From NCBI RefSeq assembly GCF_008710285.1, contig NZ_VYQF01000001.1:1-64000 (forward strand): a stretch of 64,000 nt of DNA, in the 5' to 3' direction. This DNA comes from Ginsengibacter hankyongi. Lineage in GTDB: Bacteria; Bacteroidota; Bacteroidia; Chitinophagales; Chitinophagaceae. Each line of letters begins with the position of its first letter. The stretch's first letter is position 1. The position numbers and the translations under genes were made by a program. Below are positions 10,494-51,443 of this stretch, piece by piece. The notes beneath the pieces were generated by a model, which saw only the letters and a program-made list of their open reading frames with translations, searched no databases and was not told the DNA's origin.

Positions 10494-11117
10494 TCATTTT
10501 AAATGTCTTTCTTTCAAAATATCTAAAACCTCATCAAGCTCAACATTTTTCTCACGCAATAAAACCATTGTGTGAAAGATTAAATCGGCGGCCTCATTTA
10601 AGAAAAGCTTTTTGTGATTGTCCTTAGCTTCAATTACCAATTCCACTGCTTCTTCGCCCACTTTTTGTGCAATAGAATTTAATCCTTTCTTAAATAAAGT
10701 AGATGTATATGATCCTGAAACCGGATATTTTTTTCTTCCCAGAATAATTTTTTCAAGCGTTTTTAAAAAATCATCAGACACATTGTCTTCATTAAAACAG
10801 GTCTCAGCGCCAGTATGACAAACGGGTCCATCAGGCTTTGCCTTTATAAGCAAAGCATCGAAATCGCAATCGGTCTTCATATCAACAAAATGTAAAAAAT
10901 TTTTACTTGTCTCACCCTTTACCCATAAGCGCTGTTTGCTGCGGCTATAAAAAGTTACTAATTCCGATTCTATAGTTTCAAGCAATGCTTCCTGGTTCAT
11001 ATAGCCCAGCATTAAAACAACATTCGTTGAAGCGTCCTGCACAACTACCGGTATAATCCCTTTTTCATATTTGGAAAAATCAAGCCGTTTTACCATGTCT
11101 GCATAATTTCTGGTCAT
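10494..11117 (-). CDS. hisIE: Bifunctional phosphoribosyl-AMP cyclohydrolase / phosphoribosyl-ATP pyrophosphatase
   Basis: 207 residues covering the second and third steps of histidine synthesis. The N-terminal HisI domain (1-105) shows the metal-binding [11 protein letters not shown] and CHTGAETCF blocks; the C-terminal HisE domain (about 110-205) has the [12 protein letters not shown] metal/nucleotide site. The fusion is typical for Bacteroidota. It is the last biosynthetic gene in the his operon, with its start overlapping the hisF stop by 4 bases (ATGA-type overlap). Confidence 0.97.
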
Positions 11118-11872
11118 AATCTTACATTAACTTTTTTATCAGATAAAAATTGTTTCAAAACAGGTATCTCAATTTCTTTATAATGAAATACGGTGGCAGC
11201 AAGGGCTGCATCCGCATTGGCATTTTGAAATATATCAGCAAAATGTTGCATATTGCCGGCACCTCCTGAAGCAATAATGGGAACTGAAATTTCTTTAGAG
11301 ATTAATGAAGTGATTTTTTCAGCAAACCCATCTTTTGTTCCATCATTATTCATAGAGGTTAAAAGAATTTCACCCGCCCCCGACGCTACTGCTTGTTTCG
11401 CCCAATCAAGTGCTGTCATTTCAGTCTTAACTCGTCCGCCGTTTAAATATACATACCATTTCCCATCGGCTTCTTTTTTAGTATCAATTGCAAGGACCAC
11501 ACACTGACTTCCAAATTCATCAGCCATTTCTTTAATCAATGCCGGATTTTTAAAGGCTGCTGAATTAATTGAAATTTTATCAGCCCCATTTTGCAATAGT
11601 TCAAATGCATTTTCAACAGATGCAATTCCACCACCAACAGTAAAGGGAATATTGATTTGAGCTGCTACTTTTTTTACAAGTTCTACTAATGTTTTTCTTT
11701 TTTCAACTGTTGCAGTAATATCCAAAAAAACTAATTCGTCGGCACCTTCCCGTGAGTAATACATCGCAAGTTCCACCGGATCGCCCGCATCGCGGATGTT
11801 TACAAAGTTAACCCCCTTAACCGTTCGTCCATTATTGATATCAAGACATGGTATGATTCGTTTTGCAAGCAT
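11114..11872 (-). CDS. hisF: Imidazole glycerol phosphate synthase subunit HisF
   Basis: 252 residues, a complete TIM barrel. The catalytic Asp of [13 protein letters not shown] near residue 11 and the second Asp of LAIDTKK near 130 are present, as is the FTVGGGI phosphate loop. It is the cyclase half of IGP synthase: ammonia from HisH converts PRFAR to IGP and AICAR. Start and the hisA stop share one base (TAATG), showing translational coupling within the operon. Confidence 0.97.
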
Positions 11873-12597
11873 TAATTATTTTTTATAAAATCGGTAATTT
11901 GTTGTGTTGTAATTTTTCCCTCATAAAATGCTTTACCTATTATAGCGCCTTTGCAGCCTGCTTCCTGTAAAGTAAACAAATCATCATAACAGGAAATCCC
12001 TCCGCTGGCAATGAGATAAAGTGAAGGGAATTTTTTTAATATTTCTTTATACAATTCTACAGAAGGCCCCTGCATCATTCCATCTTTTGAAATATCCGTA
12101 CAAAATATTTTATTAATATTTAATTGAAGAAGATCTTCTGTAAAATTAAATATATCAGTACCTGTGCTTTCCTTCCAACCGTGTATCTTAATTTTTTTAT
12201 CAAGCACATCTGCACCAGGCAAAAATTTATCCGGACCATATTCGCTGATCCATTCTGAAAACAAAGCTGGCGACTTAATTATCACACTTCCCAAACTTAT
12301 CATGGTTGCCCCTGCATTGAAAACACTTTTTATAGACTGATTAGTTTTTATTCCACCACCAAAGTCGATTATCAAAGATGTGTTTGCTGAAATATTTTCA
12401 AGTACACGAAGATTTTTCAACGCTTCTCCATTTGCTCCGTCCAAATCGACAATATGTAAACTTGTTACGCCAGCCTCTTGGAAGCCTTTGGCAATCTCCA
12501 AAGGATTATTACTGTAAACGGTTTTTTTATTAAAATCACCTTTCGATAGCCGCACGCATTTACCATCCATTACATCTATTGCAGGTATTAATTCCAT
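11872..12597 (-). CDS. hisA: Phosphoribosylformimino-AICAR-phosphate ribotide isomerase
   Basis: 241 residues, a TIM barrel related to His[13 protein letters not shown] holds the N-terminal catalytic Asp and FGGGI and ASGGI form the phosphate loops. It isomerises ProFAR to PRFAR. Its start abuts the hisH stop directly and it overlaps hisF by one base. Confidence 0.96.
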
Positions 12598-13206
12598 CTA
12601 CGCCAGTTTTAAAAAGTTTGAAATAATCTGAATTCCTGTATCAGCTGATTTTTCCGTATGGAATTGTACGCCATAAAAATTATCCCTGTGTATCGCTGCA
12701 CTAAATGGAACTATATAATCAGTAGTTGCAATAGTTTCAGGAGACTGCTCTGCATAATAACTATGCACAAAATATACAAATGAATTTTCCTTTACACCAC
12801 CAAACAATGGAGATTTAAGGCCATAAATATTATTCCATCCCATGTGCGGAATCTTAAAATGAGCCCTCTTATTCTTTAAAATAGAGTTATCAAATTTTTT
12901 AACATTTACATTAAAAATACCCAGGCATTTCGTGTTTCCTTCTTCACTCCAATTGCACATAAGCTGAAGACCAAGGCAAATCCCCAACACGGGTTGCTTT
13001 AAAGAAATAATTAATTTATCAAGATGGTGTTTTTGTAAATATTCCATGGCAGAACCGGCATGGCCAACCCCGGGGAAAATAACTTTGTCTGCCTTCAAGA
13101 TCTCTTCTGCGTCACCAGTTACAACTGCGTCTATACCCAGTCGTTGTAAAGCATACAAAACGCTTTGTACATTGCCTGCGTTATATTTTACAATAGCAAT
13201 TTTCAT
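12598..13206 (-). CDS. hisH: Imidazole glycerol phosphate synthase glutaminase subunit HisH
   Basis: 202 residues, class I glutamine amidotransferase. The nucleophile lies in GICLGLQL and the His-Glu pair in VQFHTEKS; together they complete the catalytic triad that supplies ammonia to HisF. hisH and hisF are separated by hisA, as is usual in this phylum. The start overlaps the hisB stop by 4 bases. Confidence 0.97.
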
Positions 13207-14345
13207 AAAACACCTTTTGTTGTAGGCAAAGAATTATTTTGGATATCTCTTTTTATTGCCATCTTAATTGACTTCGCAAATGCTTTAAAAATAGATTCTA
13301 TTTTGTGATGTTCATTGGTACCTTCTGCTTTAATATTCAGATTGCATTTGGATGCATCGCTAAACGATTTAAAAAAGTGATAAAACATTTCTGTTGGCAT
13401 CTCTCCTATTTTTTCTCTTTTAAAATCTGCTTCCCAAACCAACCAGTTTCTGCCACCAAAATCAATCGCTACCTGCGCCAAACAATCATCCATTGGCAGC
13501 AAGAATCCGTATCTTTCTATTCCCTTTTTATTACCCAAGGCCAATAAGAATGCTTCGCCCAGTGCAATGCCCACATCTTCAATAGTATGATGTTCATCAA
13601 TATGAAGATCGCCTTTACACGTTACCGTTAGGTCTATTCCTGAATGCCTGGCAAGCTGATCTAACATGTGATTAAAAAACCCTAAGCCTGTTTCAATTTT
13701 TGAAACCCCTGTTCCATCAAGATTAAGTTCTATTTCAATTTTAGTTTCGTTGGTATTTCTTACATGATTAATATTTCGCGGCGGAATTTTTAAATACTCA
13801 TAAATATCTTTCCAGTGTTGAGTTTCCAATGCAATAACGTTATTAAGCTCATTGGCAGTTATGTCAAGCTCGCCTGCGCCAAGGTTATCGTGGTTATTCA
13901 GCCAAAAAGCGCGGCTACCCAGGTTCTCTGCGAGCTTCACATCGGTAAGCCTGTCGCCGATTACAAAAGAGTTTTTTAAGTCATATTTATCGGCATCGAA
14001 ATATTTAGTGAGCATTCCTATACCAGGCTTTCGTGTAGGCTTATTCTCATAGGTGAAAGTCCGGTCGATGCATATTTCAGAAAAAATAATTCCCTCATTT
14101 TCCAACGCCTTTAAAACAAAATTTTGAATGGGCCAGAAAGCATCCTCAGGAAAAGATGGTGTACCCAAGCCATCCTGGTTGGTTACCATCACCAGTTCAT
14201 AATCCAGATCGTTTACAATTTTAGTAAGGTATTCAAACATATACGGGTAAAATTCCAGTTTGGCAAAAGCATCCAACTGGTAAGTAGGTGGCGCCTCTTT
14301 AATAAGTGTACCATCACGATCTATAAATAAAATTCTTTTAGTCAT
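13203..14345 (-). CDS. hisB: Bifunctional histidinol-phosphatase / imidazoleglycerol-phosphate dehydratase
   Basis: 380 residues from the ATG at 14345; the frame extends 8 codons further upstream to 14369, but [14 protein letters not shown] is the usual N-terminus and overlaps hisC by only 8 bases. The N-terminal HAD phosphatase (about 1-165) has the nucleophile in [11 protein letters not shown] and the metal-binding histidinol-phosphatase loop; the C-terminal IGPD domain (from about 180) shows [15 protein letters not shown] and the second His-rich NEHHKIES block. It catalyses two non-consecutive steps, either side of HisC. Confidence 0.96.
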
Positions 14346-15396
14346 TCCTGTATTTTTTAAGTGCATCAATTAATGATTCATTTTCTTCCGGCGTTCCAAC
14401 TGTAATTCTTATACAATTTCCACACAATGGTTCCTTACTCCTGTTACGAACAATAATTTTTTTACCAGATAAATATTTATAAAGTTTATCAGCATCATCC
14501 GTTTTTATTAAAAGGAAATTTGCATCAGAAGGATAAATCTTTTGCATAAAATTAAATTGCGATAATTCTTTTTGTAAAAAAGTTCTTTGCTCAACTGTAT
14601 TTTTAATATTAGCATTTACTTCGTCAATTCCGGACAATGCTTTTATGCCTAATTGTTGTGACGAGAGATTTATATTATAAGGTGGCTTTACTTTATTAAA
14701 TAGTTCAATAATTTTTCCTGAAGCAAAAGCAAGCCCTAGCCTTAATGCGGCGAGCCCCCATGCTTTTGAAAGTGTTTGCATTACAATCAGATTTTCATAC
14801 TCAGTAAGTTCCTGCAAAAAAGTTTTTTGTTTAGAATAGTTAATATATGCTTCATCAATAATTACGATGCCGGGGAAATTATTGATGAGTAATTCAATAT
14901 CCATCCGGTTCATATTATTTCCGGTTGGGTTATTAGGCGAGCATATAAAAAGTAACCGGGTATTGGAATCAATGGCTCCTAAAATTCTTTCAACATCAAG
15001 CTGAAAATCTTCAGTAAGATTTATTTCCTTAACACGAACATCATTAATATTGGCACAAACTTTATACATGCCATAAGTGGGCGGACAGGTTATAATATTA
15101 CTTTTACCAGGCTCACAAAAAATACGGAATGCAAGATCAATCACTTCATCGCTACCATTACCGATAAAAATATTTTGCGGAGGAATTCCCTTTATTTTGG
15201 AAAGGTCCTGTTTTAATTCCCATTGCAATGGATCAGGATAACGGTTATAGTTTTCATCTAACGGTGAACCATAACTGTTTTCGTTGGCGTCTAAAAAAAT
15301 GGACGCTTTTCCCGAATATTCAGTTCGAGCAGAAGAATATGGTTGCAGGCTCTTTATATTATCTCTTACGAGATCATCGAGATTAAAATTTTTCAT
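14338..15396 (-). CDS. hisC: Histidinol-phosphate aminotransferase
   Basis: 352 residues, fold-type I PLP aminotransferase. The PLP lysine lies in [14 protein letters not shown], with CSPNNPTGN and the IIDEAY Asp as cofactor contacts. It converts imidazole acetol phosphate to histidinol phosphate using glutamate. The start overlaps hisD by 14 bases and the end overlaps hisB by 8 bases. Confidence 0.96.
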
Positions 15397-16681
15397 TTAC
15401 TGATTTTTTTAAACGAATACTCACGGCATTTTTATGTGCTTCCAATCCTTCCGCTTCAGCCATTTTCTCTATTGCATTGCCAATATTTTTTATTCCCTTT
15501 TTATTTATTTTTTGAAAAGTGATTTTCTTTACAAAACTATCAACCGAAACACCAGCCTGCACCCTGGCTGTTCCATTTGTCGGCAGCGAATGGTTGGTTC
15601 CTGACGCATAATCACCGGCACTTTCAGGAGAAAGGTTACCAAGAAAAACACTCCCTGCATTTTTTACATAATCTGCAAGTTGTTCAGCTTTTTTTGAAGC
15701 AATTATTAAATGTTCCGGCGCATAGTCATTTAAAAAGTTAAAGGCTTCTTCCTCTTTTTCGATCACGATAAACCGCCTGTTTAAAAAACTCTGTTCAATA
15801 ATATCTTTTCTTGAAAGCGATGGTAACTGCTGATGAATTTTATCAATTATATTTTCAATAATCTTTTTGTTAGTTGTCACAAGTATTACCTGGCTATCAG
15901 GGCCATGTTCGGCCTGGCTTAACAAATCAGCAGCCACAAATTCAGGCACACAGGTATCATCAGCGTACACTGCGAGTTCGCTGGGCCCGGCTAACATATC
16001 AATAGCAATTCCATCAGCACTCACTAATTTTTTTGCACAGGTTACATATTGATTTCCCGGGCCAAAGATCTTATCAACTTTTTTAATAGTTAATGTTCCG
16101 TAAGCCAACGCAGCAATTGCCTGTGCGCCGCCACCTTTATAAATCTTATCGAGGCCAAGAATATTAGCAACATATAAAATTGCGTCATTTACATTTCCAT
16201 CATTTTGTGCGGGTGTGGTAACAATAATATTTTTACAACCCGCAATTTTTGCGGGAATCGAAAGCATTAAAAGTGTAGAAAACAAAGGAGCGCTTCCTCC
16301 CGGAATATATAAGCCCACGTTTTCAATGGGTATACTTTTTCGCCAGCATGTAACGCCGGAAACAGTTGTAATCTTCTTTACTTTTTCAATTTGATGTTGG
16401 TGAAATTTTTCAATATTGTCTTTTGCGAGATGGATGGCTTTTTTTAAATCTTTATTTATAGACTTCGATGCATCTTTAATTTCATCTTTGCTAACCCATA
16501 AATTATCTGGAGCAAATCCGTGAAATTGTAAAGAATAATTTTTTACAGCTTCGTCTCCATTTTGCTTTACAGTATTGATAATTCCTGCAACTGTTTCTTC
16601 TAAATTTTCAGCATTAATAACAGGCCTTTTAATTAAATCAGCCCATTGTGACGGGGAAGGATTTATGATTAAAGTATTCAT
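15383..16681 (-). CDS. hisD: Histidinol dehydrogenase
   Basis: 432 residues, full length. Characteristic blocks are VGLYIPGGSAPLFST, FGPGNQYVT, AGPSELAV, the zinc/catalytic region with QAEHGPDSQV and YAPEHL, and GNLSPESAGDYASGTNH. It oxidises histidinol to histidine in two NAD-dependent steps. The start is 9 bases after the hisG stop. Confidence 0.97.
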   Translation of the reverse strand: MNTLIINPSPSQWADLIKRPVINAENLEETVAGIINTVKQNGDEAVKNYSLQFHGFAPDNLWVSKDEIKDASKSINKDLKKAIHLAKDNIEKFHQHQIEKVKKITTVSGVTCWRKSIPIENVGLYIPGGSAPLFSTLLMLSIPAKIAGCKNIIVTTPAQNDGNVNDAILYVANILGLDKIYKGGGAQAIAALAYGTLTIKKVDKIFGPGNQYVTCAKKLVSADGIAIDMLAGPSELAVYADDTCVPEFVAADLLSQAEHGPDSQVILVTTNKKIIENIIDKIHQQLPSLSRKDIIEQSFLNRRFIVIEKEEEAFNFLNDYAPEHLIIASKKAEQLADYVKNAGSVFLGNLSPESAGDYASGTNHSLPTNGTARVQAGVSVDSFVKKITFQKINKKGIKNIGNAIEKMAEAEGLEAHKNAVSIRLKKSVNEKF

Positions 16682-16690
16682 CTCTTATTT

Positions 16691-17545
16691 TTAAAGTATC
16701 ATTTTTTCAATAGGCACTACCAAAATTCCCTGTGCACCAAATGATTTTAATTTTTCAATAATATCCCAGAAATCACTTTCGTTAACTACACTTTGCACAC
16801 TGCTCCACCCGCTTTCAGCTAGTGGAACAATGGTAGGGCTTTTCATACCGGGCAAAACAGATGCTATATTTTTTAACTGGTCGTTAGGTGCATTCAACAT
16901 AATATATTTATTGTTTCTTGCAGCTTTTACTGCGCTGATACGCATCAATAATTTATCAAGAACGGCATTATTTTCTGCTGTTAAATTTTTGTTGGCAACC
17001 AATACAGCTTCTGATTGGAGAACTACTTCAACCTCCTTCAAACCATTTGTCACCAACGTGCTGCCGCTGCTAACCAAATCGCAAATAGCATCTGCAAGTC
17101 CGATACCCGGCGCAATTTCAACAGATCCGCTTATTTCATGAATTTCACCATTCACCTTATTATCATTCAAAAAATTTTGCAAAAGCTTCGTATAAGATGT
17201 TGCAATTTTTAAATTTTCAAGACTGGCTACGCTTATATAGTTCATGTTTTTTGGAACAGCGATACTTAACCTGCAACGGCCAAAACCTAATTTGCTCACG
17301 ACATTAATATCCTTGTTTTTTTCATACACTACATTTTCGCCAACAAATCCTACATCTGCCACTCCATCAAAAACATATTGAGGAATATCATCATCACGAA
17401 GGAAATAAACTTCCACCGGAAAATTGAAAGCAACTGCTTTCAATTGCCTGTTACCATTGTTAATTTCAATGCCGCATTCTTTAAGAAGTTGCAAAGAGTG
17501 TTCATAAAGCCGTCCCGATTTTTGTATCGCTATTTTTAGCATCAT
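16691..17545 (-). CDS. hisG: ATP phosphoribosyltransferase, long form
   Basis: 284 residues, the hexameric HisG long form: catalytic domains occupy about 1-205 (IAIQKSGRL at the N-terminus, PRPP loop in DLVSSGSTLVTNGL) and the C-terminal ACT-like domain of about 75 residues is the site for allosteric inhibition by histidine. It does not need HisZ, and none is present. It commits ATP and PRPP to histidine and is the first structural gene behind the leader peptide and attenuator, so it is controlled both by feedback and by attenuation. The first two codons are both ATG; either may start. Confidence 0.97.
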   Translation of the reverse strand: MMLKIAIQKSGRLYEHSLQLLKECGIEINNGNRQLKAVAFNFPVEVYFLRDDDIPQYVFDGVADVGFVGENVVYEKNKDINVVSKLGFGRCRLSIAVPKNMNYISVASLENLKIATSYTKLLQNFLNDNKVNGEIHEISGSVEIAPGIGLADAICDLVSSGSTLVTNGLKEVEVVLQSEAVLVANKNLTAENNAVLDKLLMRISAVKAARNNKYIMLNAPNDQLKNIASVLPGMKSPTIVPLAESGWSSVQSVVNESDFWDIIEKLKSFGAQGILVVPIEKMIL

Positions 17546-17560
17546 TCTATTTTTAAAATT

Positions 17561-17592
17561 AAAAAAGGCTCACTTTTCAGTAAGCCTTTTTT
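17561..17592 (-). terminator. his operon attenuator (intrinsic terminator)
   Basis: A 14-bp perfect stem (one G-U pair) with a GAAA tetraloop: on the minus strand AAAAAAGGCTTACT pairs with AGTGAGCCTTTTTT, ending in six U. It lies between the leader peptide and hisG, 15 bases before the hisG start, so it must be bypassed for the operon to be expressed. Its 5' arm can instead pair with 17626-17632 (GGTAAGC with GCTTACT at 17579-17585), which would be the antiterminator. Confidence 0.9.
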
Positions 17593-17597
17593 GAAAA

Positions 17598-17613
17598 TAT
17601 GTTTCATAACATA
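17598..17613 (-). promoter_or_regulatory. Small leader hairpin between leader peptide and attenuator
   Basis: TATGTT (17598-17603) pairs with AACATA (17608-17613) around a 4-base loop. It sits between the leader stop codon and the terminator and lies in the loop of the proposed antiterminator. Confidence 0.45.
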
Positions 17614-17617
17614 CGGA

Positions 17618-17674
17618 TCAACATAGCTTACCTTTCGATAAAAAATGATGATGTATGTGAATTGTTTTTGTCAT
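17618..17674 (-). CDS. his leader peptide (attenuator-controlling)
   Basis: An 18-codon reading frame with ATG at 17672-17674 reads MTKTIHIHHHFLSKGKLC and stops at TGA 17618-17620. Four of the five codons 6-10 are His. After the His run the frame crosses GGTAAGC (17626-17632), which is complementary to the 5' arm of the hisG terminator. A ribosome stalled on the His codons leaves that segment free to form an antiterminator; one that reaches the stop codon covers it and lets the terminator form. This is the classical attenuation layout; the mechanism is inferred from sequence. Confidence 0.85.
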   Translation of the reverse strand: MTKTIHIHHHFLSKGKLC

Positions 17675-17682
17675 TGAGGGCA

Positions 17683-17714
17683 CAAAGTAAAGGATGAAAA
17701 TTTATTATAACAAA
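17683..17714 (-). promoter_or_regulatory. Candidate his operon promoter
   Basis: On the minus strand TTTG (17711-17714) is followed after 20 bases by TTACTTTG (17683-17690), one mismatch from TAnnTTTG. Transcription would begin about 2-5 bases before the leader peptide ATG, so the leader message would be almost leaderless. Confidence 0.45.
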
Positions 17715-17731: not shown

Positions 17732-18748
17732 TTAAAATGGCTCTACAGAAACACCTATTCCACTGAGATTATTATAAATAATTTTCCCAAAATCAAAAAT
17801 TACTCCATCAGCCACATCTTCTGCAAGTAATAACGGCCCATCCATATCTACGTAATCGATGAGCGGCAGAAGTTGAGCAATGGCTGCAGTACCTACAGAA
17901 CTTTCATTCATACTGCCTACCATCACTTTCATGTTAAGTTCACGTGCTTTTGAAATCATCCGAAGTGCCGGTGTAATGCCACTGCATTTAGTGAGTTTAA
18001 TATTTATTCCATGGAAATAACCATGGCACTTTTCAACATCATTTTCCGAAACACAACTTTCATCTGCGATTAGTGGTAACGGTGAGTGTTCAAATAAAAA
18101 TTTCATTCCTTCCCAATCATCCTTTGCAAGCGGCTGTTCAATAAATTCAACATTCAAATCTTTAAATACGTTTATTTTTTTTAATGCCTCATCCTGCATC
18201 CAAGCCGCATTTGCATCAATTCTAAAAACTGATGATGTATGTTTTCTTAATTCCGTAATAATTTCTACGTCATTCTCCGTACCCAATTTTATTTTATAAA
18301 TGGGCCAGGATTTTTCAGCCATTTTAGCTACCATATTTTCGATAGTGCCAATGCCTATGGTATAATCTGTTAATGGATTTTTCGAAATATCAAGATTCCA
18401 TAAAACGTGTAATTGCTTTTTATTCATTTTTCCATAAACATCCCATGCGGCCATATCAAGCGCACAAACTAAAAACGGATTTTGAGGAAAGAGGTGATGT
18501 AAATAATGCCAATATCGTTCAGGATGGGTAAGCGCAAATTTTTCAATGAGATTTCTTTTTGTTTCAATATCTTCAATCATCTTCTCTACCGGGATATTGT
18601 AATAATTAATTGCCGGTGCTTCTCCATATCCTTTTATTCCAAAGTATTCAAGTTCTACCAATAAAGATGGCTGATGTGTTTTTGTGGCTTTTGAAATTGT
18701 AAATGGGTAACGGAAAGGAAGATTTATGGACCTATATTTTAAAATCAT
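17732..18748 (-). CDS. Dipeptide epimerase (L-Ala-D/L-Glu epimerase type, enolase superfamily)
   Basis: 338 residues from the ATG at 18748 (MILKYRSINLPFRYPFTIS, the typical start); the frame stays open to 18790 but the 14 extra residues are not family-like. The N-terminal capping domain is followed by a barrel with the KxK catalytic pair in YKIKLG, metal ligands in FRIDANAAW, EQPL and ADESC, and the opposite-face Lys in INIKLTKCSG. DMDGPLLLAED near the C-terminus is typical of the Ala-Glu epimerase group, which epimerises dipeptides from murein recycling; exact dipeptide specificity is uncertain. It lies downstream of the glucanotransferase on the same strand. Confidence 0.85.
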   Translation of the reverse strand: MILKYRSINLPFRYPFTISKATKTHQPSLLVELEYFGIKGYGEAPAINYYNIPVEKMIEDIETKRNLIEKFALTHPERYWHYLHHLFPQNPFLVCALDMAAWDVYGKMNKKQLHVLWNLDISKNPLTDYTIGIGTIENMVAKMAEKSWPIYKIKLGTENDVEIITELRKHTSSVFRIDANAAWMQDEALKKINVFKDLNVEFIEQPLAKDDWEGMKFLFEHSPLPLIADESCVSENDVEKCHGYFHGINIKLTKCSGITPALRMISKARELNMKVMVGSMNESSVGTAAIAQLLPLIDYVDMDGPLLLAEDVADGVIFDFGKIIYNNLSGIGVSVEPF

Positions 18749-18796
18749 CTGATAACTACTTATATAACGATATGGGTTAAACGAAGACAAGTGGTT

Positions 18797-51358: not shown

Positions 51359-51443
51359 GGAGGGATGTCAGAGCGGTTTAACGAGGCGGTCTTGAAAACC
51401 GTTGACTGTTACAGGTCCGGGGGTTCGAATCCCTCTCCCTCCG
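51359..51443 (+). tRNA. tRNA-Ser (anticodon UGA)
   Basis: 85 nt. The acceptor GGAGGGA (51359-51365) pairs with TCCCTCC (51436-51442), discriminator G at 51443; the T arm is GGGGGTTCGAATCCCTC-like, the anticodon loop reads CTTGAAAA with TGA, and there is a long variable arm, as expected for serine. The CCA end is not encoded. An intrinsic terminator follows. Confidence 0.95.

Follow-up and report, generated by a model that had tools for sequence, protein, structure and literature searches.

The his locus and its leader region

The window, i.e. the whole stretch of 64,000 nucleotides that was analysed, covers the beginning of contig 1 in a genome of 5.5 Mb and carries a complete his operon on its minus strand. 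The named hisG relatives closest to that of the window are found in Ferruginibacter and other Chitinophagaceae. The gene located upstream of the his leader (17732-18790) is epimerase-like and scored below the NCBIfam cut-offs. A reading of the sequence alone had placed an attenuator before hisG, and this observation was confirmed. The features of the region are as follows, with the basis of each assignment given in brackets.

17711-17714, minus strand: -33 element TTTG of a Bacteroidota-type promoter (4/4 match, correct spacing)
17683-17690, minus strand: -7 box TTACTTTG (5/6 fixed positions of TAnnTTTG; 8 nt upstream of the leader ATG)
17618-17674, minus strand: leader ORF MTKTIHIHHHFLSKGKLC plus stop codon, 18 codons, ATG at 17674 and stop at 17618 (sequence; codon-position bias in relatives)
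17645-17659, minus strand: regulatory codons, four His in five, of which 17645-17658 doubles as strand A (sequence, folding)
17637-17642, minus strand: strand A' (UUUAUC), pairs with B (folding)
17626-17632, minus strand: strand B (GGUAAGC), pairs with A' or E (folding; B:E compensated between families)
17609-17624, minus strand: strand B', pairs with the His codons (A) or partly with C (folding; swap test)
17597-17603, minus strand: strand C, antiterminator inner helix (folding)
17579-17586, minus strand: strand E, pairs with B (antiterminator) or F (terminator) (folding; covariation)
17561-17592, minus strand: intrinsic terminator E:F, 14 bp, GAAA loop, -17.4 kcal/mol (folding; covariation)
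10494-17545, minus strand: regulated operon hisG, hisD, hisC, bifunctional hisB, hisH, hisA, hisF, hisIE (all above the NCBIfam cut-off for the named enzyme)

The candidate promoter that had been proposed at 17683-17714 matches the Bacteroidota type in both elements, with 20 nt between TTTG and TTACTTTG. The consensus TAnnTTTG with a box position of -12 to -5, as well as the absence of Shine-Dalgarno sequences in Bacteroidota, are given in the available text of PMC9723704. Matches to at least 5/6 positions of TAnnTTTG were detected within 30 nt of the leader ATG for 74 of 77 leaders (the window and the 76 relatives described below) vs 25% of 1540 control ATGs; if a TTTG match of at least 3/4 is added, the values are 92% and 8%. 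Setting the box at -12 to -5 predicts a 5' untranslated region of 4 nt for the window and of 0 nt for eight among the 77 loci (L053, L062, L092, L093, L094, L095, L096 and L101, of which L095 and L096 look identical there). In these eight loci the -7 box ends 4 nt ahead of the leader ATG and a fully leaderless RNA is thus predicted. At another locus (L112, 152-228, genome G197), the ATG of the His leader directly follows a tRNA-Phe gene (ARAGORN, 152-225), so that this attenuator may be co-transcribed with the tRNA. A generic sigma-70/terminator scan reported neither the his promoter nor the terminator of the window, probably because its promoter pattern is enterobacterial and because the A:U stem of the terminator leaves too few trailing T residues.

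As the terminator sits between two genes of the same direction, it could simply end transcription of the upstream gene or of a small RNA and leave the his operon unregulated. This explanation is extremely unlikely, since the promoter match and the leader fall between the upstream gene and the terminator, and since the competing strands and His codons are conserved.

The leader is present as proposed, with 18 codons and a run of five that includes four for His. These four His codons occupy positions 17657-17659, 17651-17653, 17648-17650 and 17645-17647 (minus strand) and represent the clustered cognate codons that characterize ribosome-mediated leader-peptide attenuators. The distance from the last His codon to GGTAAGC is 12 nt and not 13 bases, as had been counted earlier. 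A pattern search detected the GGTAAGC switch at hisG only, which argues against a second copy in the genome; contig 3 carries a weak DNA match (L002). At gathering score, Rfam matches the window only at a tRNA gene (51359-51443).

Competing strands and the proposed switch

GGTAAGC (17626-17632), the terminator (17561-17592) and GCTTACT in its 5' arm (17579-17585) were all verified at the places named by the sequence-only reading. The terminator has the 14 bp and the GAAA loop described, but its six U residues are paired with six A residues within the 14-bp stem. A small hairpin that had been noticed at 17598-17613 also exists; it corresponds to the antiterminator inner helix (17597-17603 with 17608-17614), whose formation excludes or competes with base-pairing by the His codons. 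The earlier set of hairpins was correct for B:E, E:F and the small hairpin but overlooked two helices, A':B and the His codons with B'. In the first of these, UUUAUC (17637-17642) pairs with GGUAAG (17627-17632) around a GAAA loop, and pairing between the His codons (17645-17658) and B' (17609-17624) lengthens this hairpin.

The alternative structures were folded, which had been suggested as a check. The RNA that precedes E folds at -15.0 kcal/mol (A':B plus A:B'), the RNA from which the first 40 nt of the leader were removed, mimicking a stalled ribosome, folds into B:E plus B':C at -16.4 kcal/mol, and the terminator folds at -17.4 kcal/mol. Anti-antiterminator (1:2), antiterminator and terminator are thus all present in the window, and the 118-nt fold reached a z score of -6.3, with none of 200 shuffles being as good. 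In a longer stalled RNA that includes F the terminator wins (-22.7 vs -16.4 kcal/mol), so antitermination must rely on timing, with the antiterminator forming first. This is how the antiterminator of classic attenuators is held to act.

The region is best explained, with a probability of roughly 93%, as a putative ribosome-mediated, trp/his-type transcription attenuator that would tune the his operon to charged His-tRNA. With ample histidine, the ribosome would reach the leader stop codon and cover B, whereupon E would pair with F and transcription would stop ahead of hisG. If His-tRNA is scarce, the ribosome would stall at the His codons and cover A and A' while B, 12 nt ahead, would be free; with F still to be transcribed, B and B' would pair with E and C, respectively, allowing RNA polymerase to read on. 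Without translation, A and A' would hold B' and B, and the terminator would form.

Conservation in relatives and spread across the phylum

Relatives were taken as the best 80 of 195 candidates, from which L050 and L066 were dropped (little or no upstream DNA), leaving 78. hisG was found in 17 of 20 genomes of the genus, and those 19 loci lie outside the relatives analysed. A strict search detected a His-rich ORF in 75 of the 78 relatives. The exceptions are L089, which has no leader, L069, for which 59 nt of upstream DNA are present and a terminator is visible, and L051. The latter (2856-2979) contains a leader with two His codons only (MKRIINIHQPHQIYSRGKLF) together with an intact switch strand and terminator, and its leader is perhaps a decaying sensor. 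A looser rule admits L051, so that 76 relatives plus the window, 77 sequences in total, were analysed. Leader and terminator are present in 76 of the 78 relatives, and the switch strand in 75 of these 76 and in the window. Strand B was parsed in 75 of the 77 sequences and added by motif for L063. The remaining sequence, L100 (2829-2971, Fulvivirga lutimaris), has a His leader and a terminator and is devoid of the GGTAAGC strand, so a different pairing would be needed there.

Folding of the relatives supported the mutual exclusion of antiterminator and terminator that had been proposed, as B:E uses strand E and was formed with at least 5 pairs in all 75 of 75 stalled folds. Before E is present, upstream pairing of B by four or more pairs was seen in 72 of 75; this is the 1:2 (pause/anti-antiterminator) hairpin, which was also found in the fold of the window. 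In the full RNA, E was paired with F in 77 of 77 sequences. A hairpin with a T run was likewise detected in 77 of 77; for L031 the script picked a wrong short one, yet E pairs with F.

The His codons are conserved. Among 32 leaders of the form M....HxHHHH, the HxHHHH codons showed 89, 164 and 929 pairwise differences at codon positions 1, 2 and 3. These differences fall mostly at third positions, which argues that the histidines are kept as amino acids and speaks for translation of the leader, even though the same bases are also constrained by RNA pairing and do not provide a pure test. The distance from the last His codon to strand B has a mean of 12.4 nt with a standard deviation of 1.3 (76 loci) and takes a value of 12 or 13 nt at 54 of 75 loci, while the standard deviations are 9.4 for the distance from B to the stop codon and 6.5 for that from B to E (76 loci). 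A nearly constant spacing between His codons and B combined with a wandering stop codon is what ribosome geometry would demand.

Covariation was counted separately for the competing helices, as these cannot co-occur in one fold, and the structures were taken from L033, as MAFFT sets the one missing His codon of the window awkwardly. For the terminator, 7 pairs changed on both sides and the score was 0.301 vs 0.219, which none of 500 shuffles reached; RNAalifold on the 77 sequences returned the terminator alone. The 1:2 structure in 77 rows gave a score of 0.181 vs 0.157 (0 of 500 shuffles), with 9 vs 8.6 changes on both sides, a number reached in 251 of 500 shuffles. Antiterminator covariation was counted on the 31 closest sequences only, and in these rows neither the 1:2 structure nor the antiterminator was clearly above shuffles (score reached by 72 and 62 of 500, respectively). 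A swap test was employed for 45 representatives (of 76) with less than 85% identity, in which the fit of a strand to its own partner was compared with the mean for partners of less than 70% identity. The own partner fitted better for A:B' in 39 of 45, for B':C in 37, for E:F in 34 and for A':B in 29 (p 0.04), with the relatedness among representatives making the p-values of this test optimistic. For B:E this was the case in 25 of 45 (p 0.15), and the native mean was slightly weaker than the swapped one. Conservation of His codons and compensatory changes upstream of hisG, which had been named as the evidence to look for, are both present in the relatives, with the qualification that covariation among the 31 closest sequences is not clearly above shuffles and that B:E does not covary among the close relatives. 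Non-conservation, one of the refuting outcomes that had been named, was not observed: the His codons are retained, and pairing is either retained or restored by compensatory changes.

A HisG search across 296 genomes of the phylum was positive in 252. The 80 upstream regions analysed cover 8/8 from the family, 5/5 from the order (the window's own excluded), 43/54 from the class and 24/184 from other classes; they were drawn from the better-scoring matches listed, and families with a distant HisG (such as f17, f12 and f13) lie outside the sample. His-rich short ORFs were defined by a strict rule (ATG, at most 30 amino acids, at least 3 His in 7) and were detected in 63 of the 80 regions, compared with 0 of 80 on the reverse strand and a shuffle mean of 1.0 of 80. 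Raising the rule to 4 His left 54 of 80, with 0 on the reverse strand and 0.0 in shuffles. By kinship, the ORF is found in 8/8 regions of the family, 5/5 of the order, 40/43 of the class (53/56 in the class overall) and 10/24 of other classes. A structured 5' region ahead of an amino-acid operon could also be a ligand-binding RNA (riboswitch or T-box) that overlaps a His-rich ORF by chance. The probability of this is practically negligible, given the strand-specific occurrence of the ORFs (63/80 vs 0/80), their third-position bias, the lack of any T-box or riboswitch match, and the small amount of sequence kept across families outside the His codons and strands.

The script found a terminator in 49 of the 63 regions with a His-rich ORF, and in 45 of these 49 the stretch after the His codons pairs with the 5' arm of the terminator at p <= 0.05 vs 200 shuffles (G137, G258, G104 and G286 failed at this level). 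The helices employed are GGUAAGC/GCUUACC in f1, AGGUAG/CUACCU in part of f2, GGCAGG/CUUGCC in part of f8, GCCGGGU/CCCCGGC in f16, and CUCAAGCGA/CCGUUUGAG in f5, a helix sequence other than that of the window. Such family-specific helices demonstrate the change in B:E that close relatives cannot show.

For 14 of the 63 regions the script found no terminator. Visual inspection revealed a terminator-like stem in two of these (G072 and G197), and the others include 6/6 sampled f3 and 4/7 sampled f8 regions. Loci with a His ORF and no terminator include L153-L158 (f3), L116, L119, L121 and L122 (f8) and L177 (f23). Several f8 leaders end in HHFHHSS, and the f3 regions have common sequence behind the leader. 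Together with the proximity of the terminator hairpin to the hisG start (it ends 15 nt ahead of hisG in the window), the 14 regions would fit a His leader that acts mainly on hisG translation, with stalling altering access to the start rather than termination. This is very unlikely for the window, as the hairpin ends in, or is trailed by, a T run in the window and its 76 leader-bearing relatives, and as hairpin and hisG are separated by anything between 9 and about 209 nt, a variation that a device masking the start would not tolerate. At a little under even odds, we propose that His-codon leaders ahead of hisG are ancient and general in the Bacteroidota class to which the window belongs, in which codons and spacing are kept and helices are rewritten per family, often on a near- or fully leaderless RNA, with the families that retain the leader but show no terminator in some or all sampled members (f3, f8) hinting at an additional read-out of this sensor that has so far gone unrecognised.

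Relation to known attenuators

No Rfam 15 model matched the region at gathering score, and the enterobacterial his leader (RF00514) was absent up to E = 10. Homology to the enteric his leader was thus rejected, in agreement with the earlier view that the sequence is unrelated to it. The Phe_leader (RF01859; 25.3 of 55 bits, E 0.031) and Thr_leader (RF00506; 21.4 of 55 bits, E 0.069) models stayed far below gathering score. Bacteroid-trp RNA (RF01692), which we take from its name to be linked to trp genes, had no match in the window. This RNA is listed as a likely cis-regulatory RNA of Bacteroidetes in the available part of PMC2864571. T-box and riboswitch models did not match the region at gathering score or up to E = 10.

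Among the papers listed in literature searches, no title or abstract describes a His leader in Chitinophagaceae; Lopatovskaya 2010 may treat Bacteroidetes. Indications of leader-peptide attenuation upstream of amino-acid operons in Flavobacterium psychrophilum are presented in PMC9723704 (2021), together with a hisG 5' element that is conserved in Flavobacteriaceae and has no Rfam hit. This element shares gene and phylum with the window; the available text gives no His-codon count, pairing or Chitinophagaceae member. In the parts available of the respective papers, Bacteroidetes leader genes are mentioned in general (PMC4833913) and leader-peptide-like sORFs are described in Bacteroides thetaiotaomicron (PMC7366714). 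The accessible portion of PMC8305728, on the his genes of this superphylum, contains no 'leader' and one 'attenuation', which concerns enterobacteria. Leader-peptide systems were said in 2010 to be shown only in Proteobacteria and Actinobacteria, to which that paper adds Firmicutes (PMC2965389), and a 2022 account of his regulation assigns T-boxes to Firmicutes and Actinobacteria and attenuators to Proteobacteria (PMC9413887); the word 'bacteroid' is absent from the main text of both.

A leader MKIKNTYNSWWQSIS with two adjacent Trp codons precedes trpE of the same genome (G000:C1:1069018-1069139, L189, ATG 1069018, minus strand). It is accompanied by a terminator GCCCCGGCACTAAGCCGGGGT, and GTGCCG pairs with CGGCAC of the terminator's 5' arm, which suggests a second candidate attenuator of the same design as the his one. 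The script found no terminator in the fetched regions before two PF00682 genes, thrA and hom, and the leuA-like region ends ~100 nt inside the domain match.

Taken alone, the window is ordinary in mechanism. The switch type is classic and recurs in many related Bacteroidota, a group for which few records of it exist; of greater interest is how widely it occurs within the class. The class-wide set could serve as a ready reporter of ribosome stalling and transcription-translation coupling in Bacteroidota, and class-wide His leaders with an unambiguous amino-acid sensor would merit Rfam families.

The enteric his leader contains seven His codons. The window has four, and not seven consecutive-type, His codons and differs further in a predicted 5' untranslated region of only 4 nt. 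It shares with the enterobacterial his attenuator (RF00514) a His-codon leader peptide, alternative hairpins and a terminator ahead of hisG, and the operon order hisGDC(NB)HAF(IE) is common to both, as far as the text of PMC8305728 extends. Candidate his attenuators of Firmicutes, from another phylum, combine a leader of three to five His codons with a terminator and an antiterminator (PMC9413887, in part). In the trpL attenuator of Sinorhizobium meliloti, also from another phylum and with Trp codons, the leader ORF starts at or beside the RNA 5' end, as predicted for the window; according to the available text of PMC7298713, the leaderless start is shown there, whereas it is predicted here.
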